Notes under the pieces: model-generated
Told to the model about the DNA's origin: nothing
Database searches by the model: none
The model's input: only the letters and a program-made list of their open reading frames with translations
Assembly: GCA_021800515.1 (NCBI GenBank)
Contig: JAJYYU010000003.1
Coordinates: 1-39,358 of the forward strand
DNA from: Microcaldota archaeon
Lineage (GTDB): Archaea > Micrarchaeota > Micrarchaeia > Micrarchaeales > Micrarchaeaceae
Reading direction: 5' to 3'
DNA length: 39,358 bases
Position numbers and translations under genes: made by a program
Shown: one piece after another, positions 29,562 through 37,589 of the stretch
How the letters are laid out: every line of letters starts with the position of its first letter
How positions within the stretch are numbered: the stretch's first letter is position 1

Positions 29562-30017
29562 CTATTCTACTAATTCTTTTTTAATCAGTTCAATTGCATC
29601 ATCTATTGAACCAGATTGTCTTACACCATATCTCCTGCATATTATATCTATATTTCCTTTCCTCCAAAATCCATCAGGGCAAACAACTACTAATTTGCCG
29701 GTTTTGGCGAACAAGCCGAGCTCTGCCATACTGACTGGGGACAGCGTGCCCGGCTCAAAATACATAAGTATCCTATCTGCTATTTCTTGCGAGGACAATT
29801 CCCATTCGACTTGAGCTCTGAACTCAGGGTTTTCTACTGATTGCTCCCATTTGCCCCAATTCTCTCTTCTTGGGTTGAGTATTGTTAGATCAGTATCTTT
29901 GAGCATGCAGACTACCTTCCTCTGCCAATCTGTTGCCTTACCAAGCTCAATGCTTCCGCCCAAAAACAGTTTCTTTCCATTGCCCTGGATTTTTCCAGGA
30001 GGTTTTATCTCAAGCAT
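29562..30017 (-). CDS. Nucleoside 2-deoxyribosyltransferase-like protein
   Basis: The 151-residue soluble protein has KLFLGGSIE (17-24), LTILNPRRENWGKW, E-W-E-L/DRILMYFEP, and the catalytic-type motif S93-P-V-S96-M-A-E99-L-G, where glutamate is the nucleophile in the family. It looks like the Nuc_deoxyrib_tr_2 branch. Members cleave or exchange the glycosidic bond of 2'-deoxynucleosides or related nucleotides, as in salvage or modified-nucleotide sanitation; the true substrate is uncertain. GGTGAG three bases before the ATG sets the start. It lies 24 bases downstream of the family 4 glycosyltransferase, so the two are likely one transcript. Confidence 0.75.
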   Translation of the reverse strand: MLEIKPPGKIQGNGKKLFLGGSIELGKATDWQRKVVCMLKDTDLTILNPRRENWGKWEQSVENPEFRAQVEWELSSQEIADRILMYFEPGTLSPVSMAELGLFAKTGKLVVVCPDGFWRKGNIDIICRRYGVRQSGSIDDAIELIKKELVE

Positions 30018-32376: not shown

Positions 32377-32757
32377 CTATTTTTTAATTTTATATCTTTC
32401 AATTGCTTCCTTAATCGCTCGTAAACTCAATGTTGCGCATTTCATTCTTACTGGACCTGGATCTATTCCTAAAATATTTTTGATTATATCCCCATTATAT
32501 TGCTCTATCTCTTTAATGCTTTTGCCTTTTATGAAATCCGTAATCATGCTCGCAGAAGCCATGCTTATTGCGCATCCTCGCCCTATAAATTTAACATCTT
32601 TTATTTTTTTATTATTAATTATTATATAAACCTCTATCTCATCCCCACAGACTTGGTTGTATTCCTTAAAATGTGTATTTGCACCTTTTAATATGCCTTT
32701 ATTATGAGGATGCTCATAATTTAGTATTATTTTTTCCGCGTAAATATCATAAGACAA
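32377..32757 (-). CDS. sufU: Fe-S cluster scaffold protein SufU/IscU-like
   Basis: The 126-residue protein has the three conserved cysteines of the NifU N-terminal/SufU fold: C37 in VCGDE with D39, C62 in GRGCAIS, and C107 in KCATLS. The extra residues around GPVRMKCA fit SufU more than IscU; neither the IscU LPPVK motif nor its His is seen. It accepts sulfur from SufS and acts as scaffold or sulfur shuttle. The start is TTG 32757: GGTGAT lies three bases upstream, and there is no in-frame ATG nearby. It is the last gene of the suf operon, 4 bases after sufS. Confidence 0.9.
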   Translation of the reverse strand: MSYDIYAEKIILNYEHPHNKGILKGANTHFKEYNQVCGDEIEVYIIINNKKIKDVKFIGRGCAISMASASMITDFIKGKSIKEIEQYNGDIIKNILGIDPGPVRMKCATLSLRAIKEAIERYKIKK

Positions 32758-32761
32758 AAAA

Positions 32762-33997
32762 TCACCTAATATTAAATTTATTTTTTATTTTATTTATTGC
32801 ATCCACTGCTGCATCTACCTCCTCTATAGTATTATACAAATAGAAGCTCATCCTAGATATCGAATGCTCCTTTGACAATTCAGATACAACAGGCATTGCG
32901 CAATGATGGCCAGCACGTATTGCTATTCCTTCTTTATCAAAAAGATATGCGATGTCATGAGGATGGACCTTGTTTATCGCAAAGGATATTATCCCTACTT
33001 TATTTTTTTCATCATTCCCTCCAAATACCTCAAGGTTATTTATGTCATTTAGCTTATCAAAAGCGTATTTTAAAAGATTCTGTTCATGCTTTCTTATATT
33101 ATTTATACCTATTTTATTAATGTAGTCAATAGCGCCTGCAAGGCCTATTGCACCCTCAATATTCTGAGTACCTGATTCAAATCTCCAAGGTAAATCATTT
33201 AATGTGCATGAGTACTTATTAACCTGTTTTACCATTTCTCCTCCCCCAAATAATGGCTTAATATTATCCAAAACAGATTTTTTTGCAAAGAGAATACCTA
33301 TTCCTGCAGGACCCATCATTTTATGCGCAGATGCAGCAAAAAAATCACACCCTATGTCCTTTACATCTATTTTTATATTAGGTATTGATTGTGCGCCATC
33401 AATAAGGACTGTGCTATTCTTTTTATGGGCAAGCTGTGTTATATATTTAATATCATTTATCGAGCCGAGCACGTTAGATGCATGAAATACGGCCGTTATC
33501 TTTGGTTCCTTTTCAAGATGCGCTTTAAAACTTTCAATATCCAGCCCTGTTTTTTCTTTATTAAGCTTTATATAATCTAAGTGTGCTTTTTTTCTTTTTG
33601 CTAGCCATAGCCATGGCAGTAAGTTGCTGTGGTGCTCTGCCTCTGAAATTAATATATGGTCCCCTTCCTTTATTACTTCATTTCCGAATGCTAGTGCAAC
33701 AAAATTTATTGCCTCTGTGGTATTCCTCATATATACAATTTCTTCAATTGACCCCGCATTTATAAATTTGGCAAATTTTGTCTTTGATTCAATATATTTT
33801 TCTGTTGCTGTTTCTGCTATTTTATATATCCCTCTATGTATATTAGAATTATAGTTTTCATAGTAATATTTTATTTTATTGATTACTTGAATGGGTTTTT
33901 GCGTTGTTGCTGCATTGTCAAAATAAACAAGCTTTTTTCCATTGACTTTTATTTTTAATATTGGAAAATCCTCCCGGATTTTATTTACATCGTACAT
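32762..33997 (-). CDS. sufS: Cysteine desulfurase SufS
   Basis: This 411-residue PLP enzyme takes sulfur from cysteine for cluster assembly. YFDNAATTQKP (25-35), EAEHHSNLLPW (119-129), IDGAQ (199-203) and the PLP lysine K226 in SAHKMMGP are clear. The active cysteine is C366 in IRAGHHCAMP, the short SufS-type loop, not the longer NifS/IscS loop. It lies between sufC (9 bases) and sufU (4 bases) in one operon. The gene is very AT-rich. The length is typical of group II desulfurases. Confidence 0.95.
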   Translation of the reverse strand: MYDVNKIREDFPILKIKVNGKKLVYFDNAATTQKPIQVINKIKYYYENYNSNIHRGIYKIAETATEKYIESKTKFAKFINAGSIEEIVYMRNTTEAINFVALAFGNEVIKEGDHILISEAEHHSNLLPWLWLAKRKKAHLDYIKLNKEKTGLDIESFKAHLEKEPKITAVFHASNVLGSINDIKYITQLAHKKNSTVLIDGAQSIPNIKIDVKDIGCDFFAASAHKMMGPAGIGILFAKKSVLDNIKPLFGGGEMVKQVNKYSCTLNDLPWRFESGTQNIEGAIGLAGAIDYINKIGINNIRKHEQNLLKYAFDKLNDINNLEVFGGNDEKNKVGIISFAINKVHPHDIAYLFDKEGIAIRAGHHCAMPVVSELSKEHSISRMSFYLYNTIEEVDAAVDAINKIKNKFNIR

Positions 33998-34006
33998 ATT
34001 TACACT

Positions 34007-34741
34007 TTACTTTTTTATATATTTCCCAAATCCTTCCCTTTCTATTTCTTTTGCAATATCTTTCTTGCCCGACGCAACAATTTTGCCGTTAACCAATACA
34101 TGTACAAAATCTGGTTTTATATATGAAATTATCTTATTGTAATGAGTAATTAGTATTACTCCTAATTTTTTCTTTTTTATGGATTCATTTAGAATTTCAG
34201 CTATATTTTTTATTGCATCTACATCAAGGCCAGAGTCTGGCTCATCAAGGATTGCAAACTTAGGATTTAAAGTAAGCATCTGCATTATCTCCATCTTCTT
34301 TTTTTCTCCTCCTGAAAATCCAAAATTAAGATCCCTCTCAATAATCTCTTTTTTTAGATCCAACTTTTTTAGATTGATCTCTATTTCTTTTTCTAAATTC
34401 TCTATATTTCCTCCCTTTTTAATAGAAGTATATGCATTATAAAGGAAGTTTATATATTTTACATCACTTATTTCAGAGGGGTTTTGGAATTGCAAAAATA
34501 AGCCAAGTTTTGCTTTTTTGTCAGTAGATAATCTAGTTATATCCTTTCTATCAAGGATAATATTTCCAGTTGTCTTTAATTTTGGATATTTCATAATCGC
34601 TTTTGCGAATGTAGTTTTTCCTGACCCATTTGGTCCCATTATAATATGAATCTCACCACTTTTAATCCTAAGGTTTATTTCAGATATTATTTTATTATCA
34701 TTTATGCCCGCGCTAAAATTCTTTATTATCAATTCGCTCAT
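34007..34741 (-). CDS. sufC: Fe-S assembly ATPase SufC
   Basis: This 244-residue ABC-type ATPase powers the SufBCD complex. Walker A is GPNGSGKTT (36-44), the Q-loop FLQFQNP (82-88), the signature FSGGEKKKMEI (142-152), Walker B ILDEPDSGLD (164-173) and the switch His in LITHYNKI. The D-S-G-L-D and F-S-G-G-E-K-K forms are typical of SufC and not of transporters. It is encoded between the HTH regulator (40 bases) and sufS (9 bases). It has no membrane partner in the cluster, as expected. Confidence 0.96.
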   Translation of the reverse strand: MSELIIKNFSAGINDNKIISEINLRIKSGEIHIIMGPNGSGKTTFAKAIMKYPKLKTTGNIILDRKDITRLSTDKKAKLGLFLQFQNPSEISDVKYINFLYNAYTSIKKGGNIENLEKEIEINLKKLDLKKEIIERDLNFGFSGGEKKKMEIMQMLTLNPKFAILDEPDSGLDVDAIKNIAEILNESIKKKKLGVILITHYNKIISYIKPDFVHVLVNGKIVASGKKDIAKEIEREGFGKYIKK

Positions 34742-34781: not shown

Positions 34782-35099
34782 TTATATCGGATATGAATTC
34801 TTGCAGATTTTGCATATGGTCTTTCTTGCTTTGCCTGCGTCTCCCATAACCATATACCTCACTAATTTATCTAATATTTTTTTGTCAAATCCTCTCTCAA
34901 TATTTTTAATTTTTTCAGAGTATTTATCATTTATATATTTGCTTACTGCAGCCTGTGTTAACCCAAGCAGCATAGCAACTTCCTCTTGTTTTAACCTGTA
35001 TTTATTTGTCATTACTTTTGTAGCACCTGCTCTAACTGCGGGGAGAAGTTCCTCAATCTCAAATTTTATATTGTTGACAGCGTAGTTTTTTTGTTTCAT
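34782..35099 (-). CDS. XRE/Cro-type HTH regulator with C-terminal Cys-x-x-Cys inside the suf operon
   Basis: The 105-residue protein has a helix-turn-helix at about 37-58 (KQEEVAMLLGLTQAAVSKYIND), resembling archaeal predicted regulators of the COG2522 type. The tail has C96-K-I-C99, a pair of cysteines that could bind iron, a cluster or zinc, or sense redox state; such C-x-I-C tails are common in this family. Its ATG overlaps the sufD stop (ATGA), so it is made together with the Suf proteins. It plausibly controls the operon in the way SufR or IscR do elsewhere, though the sequence is unrelated to those. Inverted GTTATAA sites at the sufB promoter are candidate targets. Confidence 0.8.
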   Translation of the reverse strand: MKQKNYAVNNIKFEIEELLPAVRAGATKVMTNKYRLKQEEVAMLLGLTQAAVSKYINDKYSEKIKNIERGFDKKILDKLVRYMVMGDAGKARKTICKICKNSYPI

Positions 35100-36184
35100 T
35101 TAATCATTTTAAGTATCTTTTCTTCAACAAACCTATAATTATCCGCATACTCCTGTTTTAAGTCTGAAAATGCAAATTCTTTAATTATAAATTTGTTTAT
35201 ATTTTGTTTATTAATGCCTCTACATTTCATATAAAATCTTGCATCCTCATCAAGTTTATAAATTGATGAACTATGAGTTGCATTAACTTCTTTTTCTTTT
35301 ATAATCATGAAAGGCATAGAATGTATTTTTGCATTGTTGTTTATAATCCCTTTATGGCTTATATGTATTACATTATTTTTTGCATTTTTAAATACCCTTG
35401 GCATACTTTTTAGGAAACAAATAGAATTATCAGACATTATTGTTTTGTAATTAATATTATTTTTTGAATTATCTTTATGGTTCAGGATATTAGAACTTAT
35501 ATCAAATTTTTGGTTATTGCTTCCTATCACCAATCCATTTATCTCTATATTAGTATTTAAATTTCCATCAAAAGTATTTCTTGCAATTGTGTTTATACCT
35601 CCTGCATATATAGAATTAAATACTACTTCAGAATCTGCACTCATCACAGTAAAGTGCTTAACTTCTGAATCATTATTTTGTTGATAATTAAATAAATTTA
35701 TTTTGATTTTTGAATTTTTTCCAAGATAGAAAAGATTTGTAATCCTATTTTGGGTATTACCAGAATTATATTCAAATAATTCACATTCAGAATTCTTTTT
35801 TAGCACAAATTTAATGTAAATATTTGTTGCATTAAAGCTTAGTATATTAAGGTGCTTTAGATTCTGGGGTATGTTAATAACTAATAGTCTATCAACTTCA
35901 TCATACCTCTCTACATTATTAATTTCCTCTTTGCCAGCAACTACAGAAATATCATTCATAAGATTCTTGTCAGCTAGGATTTCATTATTTTTTATTACTA
36001 TATCAAATAATGGTAACTGCTTTATTTTTAAAATATTTTTTAGTTCATTCAGAGGTATATCAATAAATCTAGTTTTAATTGTCTTTTTTTCTATGCTATT
36101 CCAGTCTATTTTTATTTCCTCTTTTTTAAATAATTCATATTCTGACTCATTAACATTAATATTATCTAACTCCCTTGTAATTAT
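35096..36184 (-). CDS. sufD: Fe-S assembly protein SufD, starting at a non-AUG codon
   Basis: SufD pairs with SufB and SufC. The first ATG (35959) would give only 287 residues. However, the same frame is open for 75 more codons upstream and reads family-like (residues near the start IITRELDN, then EEIKIDWNSIEKK, TRFIDIPLNELKN, LPLFDIVIKN), with no ATG, GTG or TTG in it. GGTGAT at 36188-36193 lies three bases before ATA 36184-36182, the same spacing used by other genes here, so I start at ATA, giving 362 residues; ATT 36181 is the alternative. The C-terminal half is the usual right-handed beta-helix ending in a helical tail. The gap from sufB is then 10 bases, and the stop overlaps the regulator start. 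Confidence 0.8.
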   Translation of the reverse strand: MITRELDNINVNESEYELFKKEEIKIDWNSIEKKTIKTRFIDIPLNELKNILKIKQLPLFDIVIKNNEILADKNLMNDISVVAGKEEINNVERYDEVDRLLVINIPQNLKHLNILSFNATNIYIKFVLKKNSECELFEYNSGNTQNRITNLFYLGKNSKIKINLFNYQQNNDSEVKHFTVMSADSEVVFNSIYAGGINTIARNTFDGNLNTNIEINGLVIGSNNQKFDISSNILNHKDNSKNNINYKTIMSDNSICFLKSMPRVFKNAKNNVIHISHKGIINNNAKIHSMPFMIIKEKEVNATHSSSIYKLDEDARFYMKCRGINKQNINKFIIKEFAFSDLKQEYADNYRFVEEKILKMIK

Positions 36185-36187
36185 AAA

Positions 36188-36193
36188 ATCACC
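36188..36193 (-). promoter_or_regulatory. Ribosome-binding site that places the sufD start
   Basis: On the minus strand GGTGAT immediately follows the sufB stop, then TTT, then ATA. dnaK, NAC, eS1, sufU, the deoxyribosyltransferase-like gene and the 78-residue gene all have GGTGA or GTGAT exactly three bases before the start codon. Confidence 0.6.
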
Positions 36194-36194
36194 T

Positions 36195-37589
36195 TTATGC
36201 TATCATCTTTTTACTGTCTATCTTCAAAAGCCTCCTTAGCTCAATGCTATATTCTAAAGGCAGTTCTTTAACTAAAGGATCAATAAATCCAAGTAATATA
36301 AGCGTTATTGCATCCTCTTCACTGAATCCTCTTGACATCAGATAAAAAATATCATCATCATTAATCCTACCTGTTGATGCCTCATGATTTATATTTGATT
36401 CGCTATTATTTATTTTAATATAAGGGAAGGTATTAGCAGAGGACTCTTTGCTAATCATCAACGAATCGCATTTTTGGAATGAAACTGAACTTGTTGCATT
36501 TTCAGAAACCAATAAATTACCTCTAAATGTTGATGACCCACTACCAATGCTTATACTTTTTGATATTACTTTTGAAGTTGTGTGCGGAGCAAGATGAAAT
36601 ATTTTACCTCCATTGTCAAATACCTGATTATTCTTGGCAACTGCTACTGACACTATTTCTCCAACAGAATTTTTGCCGCTTAAGTAAATTGCAGGATATT
36701 TCATATTAACTTTACTTCCAATGTTGCAGTCAATCCATTCAACATGCGCGTCTTCCTTTGCAATTGCACGTTGTGTTACTAGATTATATATATTTTTTGA
36801 CCAATTTTGTATTGTTATATATCTTACATGTGATTTTTTGTTTGCAATAATTTCTACAACACCGGAATGCAATGAATATGTTGAGTATACAGGGGCTGAG
36901 CACCCCTCAATATATGTGACTTCTGCTCCTTCATCTGCAATAATCAGAGTTCTTTCGAATTGTCCCATATTCTCTGCATTTATTCTAAAGTATGCCTGAA
37001 GAGGGATTGTAAGCTTTACATTTTTTGGAACGAAAAGAAAGGTTCCTCCGCTCCATGCAGCTGTGTTCAATGCTGCAAATTTATTATCATTTGCAGGAAT
37101 TACTGTGCCAAAATATTTTTTTATTATTTCTGGATATTTTTGTACAGCAGTATCCGTATCTGTAAATATTACGCCTTGAGATTCAAGCTCTTTCCGTATG
37201 TTTGAGTATATTACTTCTGAATCAAATTGGCTTTCAACACCTGCAAAAAATTTTTTTTCATATTCGGGTATCTGCAGCTTGTCAAACGTATCTTTGATTT
37301 CTTTTGGTACATCTTCCCATTTTCTAGCTTTTGCATTATGTGCAGAAACATAGTAATAAATACTATCCAGATCAAGTTCTGTCAGATCTGGACCCCATTC
37401 TGGCAGCTTCATTTTCTTAAAAATATTATATGCTGCAATCCGTTTTTCCAACATCCATTTAGGTTCTTTTTTTATTTCAGAAATTTTGCGTATTATTTCT
37501 TCATTAAGCCCTATATTTATTTTTTTAATATAATTAATGTTTTTTTTAAATCCATACTTTTTTTTATATATTTTATTATCCCTATCCAT
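36195..37589 (-). CDS. sufB: Fe-S assembly scaffold SufB
   Basis: The 464-residue SufB family protein has the N-terminal helical part (EEIIRKISEIKKEPKWMLEKR), the GVIFTDTDTAVQKYPEIIKKYFG segment, VPANDNKFAALNTAAWSGGTFLFVPKNV, and the C-terminal GRINDDDIFYLMSRGFSEEDAITLILLGF, all diagnostic. The core is a beta-helix that, with SufD and SufC, builds 4Fe-4S clusters. The start is ATG 37589; a TTG at 37598 would add three residues. TATA sequence 33 bases upstream implies a leader of only a few bases. It is the first gene of the six-gene suf operon and, with the following genes, is AT-richer than most of the window. Confidence 0.96.
   Translation of the reverse strand: MDRDNKIYKKKYGFKKNINYIKKINIGLNEEIIRKISEIKKEPKWMLEKRIAAYNIFKKMKLPEWGPDLTELDLDSIYYYVSAHNAKARKWEDVPKEIKDTFDKLQIPEYEKKFFAGVESQFDSEVIYSNIRKELESQGVIFTDTDTAVQKYPEIIKKYFGTVIPANDNKFAALNTAAWSGGTFLFVPKNVKLTIPLQAYFRINAENMGQFERTLIIADEGAEVTYIEGCSAPVYSTYSLHSGVVEIIANKKSHVRYITIQNWSKNIYNLVTQRAIAKEDAHVEWIDCNIGSKVNMKYPAIYLSGKNSVGEIVSVAVAKNNQVFDNGGKIFHLAPHTTSKVISKSISIGSGSSTFRGNLLVSENATSSVSFQKCDSLMISKESSANTFPYIKINNSESNINHEASTGRINDDDIFYLMSRGFSEEDAITLILLGFIDPLVKELPLEYSIELRRLLKIDSKKMIA

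Follow-up and report, generated by a model that had tools for sequence, protein, structure and literature searches.

The sufD gene of this micrarchaeon almost certainly starts at an AUA codon and not at AUG. Very probably, this start is one case of a genus-wide rule under which AUA, AUU and AUC (collectively AUH, where H is A, C or U) would be accepted as start codons when placed by a strong Shine-Dalgarno (SD) sequence and read by the initiator tRNA with anticodon CAU. The window, that is, the whole stretch of 39,358 nucleotides that was analysed, is one entire contig of an 803-kb genome (90% complete, a metagenome assembly). This genome is labelled G000, and G001, G002 and G003 are other members of its genus. 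The features of the window on which the argument draws are the following.

35096..36184, minus strand: sufD, full coding frame from the proposed ATA (362 codons and the stop), based on homology and on SUFBD_core (96 bits) at residues 126-337
36182..36184, minus strand: proposed ATA start codon of sufD, three bases (N3) behind GGTGAT, based on the ATT at that register in G002 and on a genome-wide register test
36179..36181, minus strand: ATT, alternative and less likely start of sufD at N6 (genome-wide, N6 has 5 ATG vs 60 at N3)
36188..36193, minus strand: SD sequence GGTGAT, a 7-base match (AGGTGAT) with A 36194, read from the sequence and conserved in G002
35960..36184, minus strand: N-terminal part of sufD, 75 codons without ATG, GTG or TTG, homologous to other SufD N-termini
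35957..35959, minus strand: first in-frame ATG of sufD, rejected as start (the conserved N-terminal part would be lost, and in G002 no canonical codon occurs over about 150 codons)
36195..37589, minus strand: sufB, whose stop precedes the ATA by 10 nt (SUFBD_core, 270 bits; 70% to G002)
34782..35099, minus strand: small gene of helix-turn-helix (HTH) type, sharing ATGA with the end of sufD, read from the sequence (gene order alike in G002 and G003)
34007..34741, minus strand: sufC (ABC_tran)
32762..33997, minus strand: sufS (cysteine desulfurase), named by protein sequence
32377..32757, minus strand: sufU-like scaffold gene with a TTG start behind ggtgatttt (N3), named by protein sequence

Read on the minus strand, the sufB/sufD junction runs GCA-TAA-A-GGTGAT-TTT-ATA-ATT-ACA-AGG, where TAA (36197-36195) is the sufB stop, followed by A 36194, the SD sequence (36193-36188), TTT (36187-36185), ATA (36184-36182) and ATT (36181-36179). 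A TAG precedes the sufD frame, which is open between 36199 and the TGA at 35098-35096. A first-pass annotation of this DNA had claimed that the frame holds no ATG, GTG or TTG before 35959, that it encodes the peptides IDWNSIEKK and TRFIDIPLNEL, and that its ATA lies three bases after GGTGAT, close behind the sufB stop; all of this is exact, and 75 codons separate the ATA from the first ATG. The same spacing, which it had noticed at several genes, is indeed found at sufU (ggtgatttt-TTG), at dnaK (ggtgagaaa-ATG) and at the starts at 30017 (ggtgaggac-ATG) and 11962 (ggtgaaacc-ATG). The GC content of the 75-codon stretch is 22%, and with this composition the probability that 75 codons are free of stops by chance is about 2e-4, falling to about 7e-6 for 75 codons free of both stops and starts. 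The identity of the gene is supported by the match to PF01458 SUFBD_core (E=2.9e-27, 96 bits against a cut-off of 27) and by its suf operon context, with sufB upstream, sufC downstream and sufS recognised by sequence. The HTH-type gene lying between sufD and sufC, which also follows sufD in G002 and G003, appears as a conserved, regulator-like member of the operon.

The closest comparison is provided by G002 (Ca. Micrarchaeota MAS3.bin46, JAJZMY01), the only relative matched when genome contigs were searched with a two-row SufD alignment; the same search with the window SufD alone matched no relatives. Its SufD is 39% identical to that of the window over nearly the full length, and its start region reads TAA-TT-GGTGAT-ATT-ATT-AAT-AAA, with ATT at N3 where the window has ATA. 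The first canonical codons of its open frame are a TTG at codon 158 and an ATG at codon 201. The contig title of this assembly gives a coverage of 1.8, and all the genomes compared are metagenome assemblies; sufB and sufD are absent from the G001 assembly, and of sufD the G003 assembly covers the last 49 codons only. The alignment with related SufDs that had been proposed as a check finds homologous N-termini: the 75-residue extension matches that of G002 with 38% identity over 63 residues (E=2e-8 in BLASTP, as a single comparison), and its family motif E..L[YF]K[KR] (E..LFK in the window) lines up with that of 28 other Micrarchaeota SufDs. Scored with an HMM of those 28 relatives alone, the extension reaches 8.9 bits, whereas the highest of 200 shuffles reached 7.9, a modest signal when taken by itself. 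The other Micrarchaeota SufDs share with the window the gene order sufB-sufD, the E..L[YF]K motif and the SUFBD_core, but in 28 of the 28 loci read the region of the L[YF]K-type motif is preceded by a canonical ATG, GTG or TTG start, whereas the window has ATA. One distant relative has ggtgacttt-GTG at sufD, in the N3 register of the window. Given the homology of the extension and the canonical starts that the relatives have upstream of this region, the N-terminal part of sufD is, on these comparisons, translated, with an N3 codon that would be AUA in the window, AUU in G002 and GUG elsewhere. Initiation at ATA or at the following ATT had been proposed earlier; the SD register and the ATT at N3 in G002 point to ATA 36184 rather than ATT 36181, which could be used instead.

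The simplest alternative is a SufD of 287 residues starting at ATG 35959, the upstream frame being open by chance. This codon is the first canonical one, the SUFBD_core begins after it, and an HMM of the relatives scores the long and the short protein alike (188 vs 187 bits). Nevertheless, such a start would discard the 75 residues with their homology to G002 and the family motif, would call for the improbable open frame (about 2e-4) and would leave the SD sequence standing at the ATA, and the same reasoning would cut about 150 residues off the SufD of G002, all of which makes it very unlikely.

In all, 802 kb of the window's genome (nearly the whole) and 247 kb of G002, read in stretches, were covered by a register test. 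In it, the codons of each long ORF were considered as far as its first canonical start, that one included, an SD being a match of at least 5 bases to GGAGGTGATC; AUH starts with weaker SD runs fall outside the count. In the window's genome, ATG stands behind such runs 60 times at N3, 8 at N4 and 5 at N6, and the N3 codons comprise 60 ATG, 8 TTG, 1 GTG, 17 AUH and 7 of all other kinds. AUH thus accounts for 17 of the 24 non-canonical codons at the exact register, against 3.2 expected (p=1.7e-10), and for 8 of 9 when the run is of at least 6 bases. G002 behaves alike, with 6 AUH and 4 other codons among its 10 non-canonical ones (p=0.0024). Registers shifted by -3, +3 and +6 showed no significant AUH excess, and neither did the exact register in G008 and G067, from other genera of the same order, so that among the genera sampled the genome-wide excess is confined to the genus of the window. 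The ratio of AUH to canonical starts climbs with SD strength (0.06, 0.20, 0.24 and 0.75 for runs of 4, 5, 6 and 7), which fits a compensation of the codon by the SD.

Two further features of these SD-marked starts were observed. GTG is scarce among those of G000 (1, vs 60 ATG and 8 TTG), while 6 were counted in G008 and 4 in G067. At the strong-SD register of G008, the non-canonical codons include CTG (3) and ACG (2), possible CUG and ACG starts in another genus.

Individual genes illustrate the pattern, since several long ORFs without an early canonical start have a GGTGAT-like site at N3 before ATA, ATT or ATC. The gene for ribosomal protein uS4 in the window's genome has an ATA with GGTGAT and an in-frame TAA directly before it, its next canonical codon lying 28 codons in. 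In G000, G001 and G003, the Met1 column of uS4 is AUA, accompanied by GGTGAT and immediately preceded by an in-frame TAA; G002 has ATG there, and 26 other genomes have ATG or TTG. For aIF2-gamma, the start is AUA, AUA and AUU in G000, G001 and G003 (three species), and the first canonical codon comes 41 codons in, past the P-loop GHIDHGKT, which would therefore be lost if translation started there. RNase HII has ATA in the window's genome and its next canonical codon after the catalytic motif DEAGRG, so that this motif would be lost in the same manner. To these can be added aIF1A (ATT behind an N3 GGTGAT-like site), aEF1B (ATT, with TAA directly before), TyrRS (ATC), a Hel308-like helicase (ATA) and, in G002, MetRS (ATT, with TGA directly before and upstream of the HIGH motif). 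In the proteins as initiated at AUH, the Pfam domains RNase_HII and GTP_EFTU begin at residues 4 and 5, respectively. Altogether, the starts collected here support the view that this Micrarchaeota genus routinely begins genes at AUA, AUU and AUC.

The case of RNase HII (rnhB) extends beyond the genus. Its start is AUH in G000, G001 and G002, and the Met1 column is AUH in at least 99 genomes of the window's order (covering both families), to which those three have to be added because the search pattern missed them; only 2 genomes with AUH lie outside the order, and NTG occupies the column in 24 of the order's 164 genomes. Among 38 distinct loci read, GGTG lies in the register or at most one base off it in 35, and in 24 the interval from the upstream stop to the AUH is free of canonical codons. 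The remaining 14 contain such a codon, sometimes inside the SD sequence, and for them the AUH start is not proven. In G013, an in-frame stop stands directly before the AUH. These counts support an AUH start on RNase HII throughout the order, and its distribution shows a sequence pattern that would be older than the habit of the genus and spread through the whole order; in G008 and G067, where no genome-wide excess exists, rnhB would be a separate, older case. At the same column, one locus (G066:C18:17102-17791, minus strand) has GTT behind ggtgatctt with no upstream canonical codon, a possible GUU start.

These other genes also bear on the remaining explanations. As improbable as the ATG 35959 start is one in which translation begins at the out-of-frame ATG 36156 and enters the SufD frame by a -1 slip at U_UUA_AAA, although its two elements are present in the window and in G002, namely a +1-frame ATG and, where the LFK codons lie, the heptamer T_TTA_AAA. 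Both elements follow from the conserved N-E and L-F-K amino acids of the SufD frame, ATG 36156 has no SD before it, and the conserved SufD-frame residues upstream of the slip site (NE.E..LFK) would go untranslated. The SufD-frame peptide ITRELDNINVNESEYELFK would not be expected from the frameshifted product (ELDNINVNESEYELFK is a predicted internal peptide of SufD), and the slip explains none of uS4, RNase HII and aIF2-gamma. Even less likely is a SufB-SufD protein joined by frameshifting or stop readthrough, in which sufD would need no start at all. The sufB stop is indeed only 10 nt from the ATA and both proteins are known to work in one complex, but going from sufB to sufD the frame changes by +1 in the window and by +2 in G002, and a single shift could not serve the two genomes, which both retain GGTGAT. 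A joined protein is also opposed by the in-frame stops that immediately precede the AUH of uS4, G002 MetRS and G013 rnhB. Equally remote is the loss of an ATG to sequencing or assembly error, conceivable in metagenome assemblies, because AUH occupies the start column in genes taken from separate assemblies, namely two divergent sufD (that of the independent genome G002 also being without an ATG there), three uS4, three aIF2-gamma and dozens of rnhB, and all these variants change the third base of AUG, whereas errors would not keep to the SD register.

The preferred reading, a sufD start at AUA, would work as follows. The strong SD (AGGUGAU) would set the archaeal 30S subunit so that the codon three bases downstream sits in the P site, where the ordinary initiator tRNA (CAU) would accept AUA with a mismatch at the third base only, presumably inserting Met. 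Ribosomes that have just finished sufB, 10 nt upstream, would help, and the strength of the SD would compensate for the AUH codon. The genus as a whole would follow the same rule, AUA, AUU and AUC being starts where they follow a strong SD at the constant N3 spacing. In a bacterial in-vitro survey, the third base is the position at which initiation is most tolerant (PMC10158994). The first-pass annotation had described the ATA as a very rare start codon, perhaps an adaptation to low SufD dosage: a non-AUG start is required, but it is not a lone one, given the use of AUA, AUU and AUC across the genus. The dosage proposal finds no support, the SD being among the strongest of the genome and the essential uS4 and aIF2-gamma sharing the start type, so that compensation fits better than down-regulation.

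The components of the initiation machinery were inspected as well. The initiator tRNA gene (L075; C37:12083-12157, minus strand) is ordinary, with A1-U72, a GC-rich anticodon stem (CTGGG/CCCAG) and the anticodon CAT, and an altered anticodon was accordingly rejected as the cause. Many tRNA genes of this genome have introns, and such genes are overlooked or wrongly typed by ARAGORN used alone. No elongator tRNA-Met or CAU-bearing tRNA-Ile was recognised; for the former, a gap or an intron may be the reason. A missing or unusual aIF1 was likewise rejected as the permissive cause: this factor, which disfavours non-canonical starts in Sulfolobus according to work cited in PMC6237735, is encoded in 4 of the 4 genus members and looks ordinary, its loop RNL resembling the KDN of P. 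abyssi aIF1. The search for the 16S 3' end found the anti-SD word only inside two other contigs, in an apparently non-rRNA context, and the anti-SD was taken from the SD sequences. A more far-reaching proposal, possible but somewhat doubtful, is that the start-codon rule itself is altered in the genus, any AUN being a full start with a strong SD at N3 through a change in the initiator complex (a factor, a tRNA modification or rRNA) that relaxes third-base discrimination, and that the AUH of RNase HII is kept across the order by selection as a regulatory device sensitive to start fidelity, like the AUU of bacterial infC.

Non-AUG starts are a known kind, and single AUU or AUA starts are known as curiosities. 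The bacterial infC gene, encoding IF3 in E. coli, starts at AUU and is a single, autoregulated gene. It resembles the present case in that an AUH codon behind an SD is read by the CAU initiator tRNA, is conserved in relatives and belongs to a translation factor gene (here aIF1A and aIF2-gamma), and differs in being one bacterial gene, whereas here the three AUH codons are all in use, on many unrelated genes of an archaeal genus. AUH starts on translation factor genes invite, speculatively, a comparison with its autoregulation. The factors aIF1, aIF1A and aIF2 are common to archaea and eukaryotes. Canonical SD-led initiation in archaea is exemplified by the P. abyssi aEF1A mRNA, with GGAGGUGAUUUAAAUG and AUG (PMC6237735); its SD sequence is as in sufD and its spacing nearly so (N4, compared with N3), while its codon is AUG and not AUA. 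For GUG and UUG starts, weaker codons are known to pair with stronger SDs (Belinky et al. 2017, PMC5622118), and the same study counts 1 switch to AUU among 61,358 ancestral AUG starts and does not mention AUA. The combination of weak codon and strong SD is shared with that system, but here AUH (17) outnumbers GTG (1) and TTG (8) together among SD-marked starts. Outside subscription journals and preprints, which the literature search did not cover, no earlier report was found of an archaeal lineage with routine AUA, AUU and AUC starts, which here extend even to uS4, aIF2-gamma and RNase HII, nor of a gene whose AUH start persists throughout an order.

In practical terms, gene finders that allow only ATG, GTG and TTG would shorten or miss the Micrarchaeota proteins started at AUH, leading to biased gene counts and apparent losses in these poorly known archaea. 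Furthermore, the genus offers a natural system for asking what sets the fidelity of start-codon choice in archaea.

A separate observation concerns a protein of unknown family in G002 (L116:18073-18606, minus strand), whose frame runs for 139 codons without a canonical codon and has an ATC directly after a TAA and behind ggtgat. Its homologue in G000 (C29:2400) has ATT, followed by GTG two codons on.
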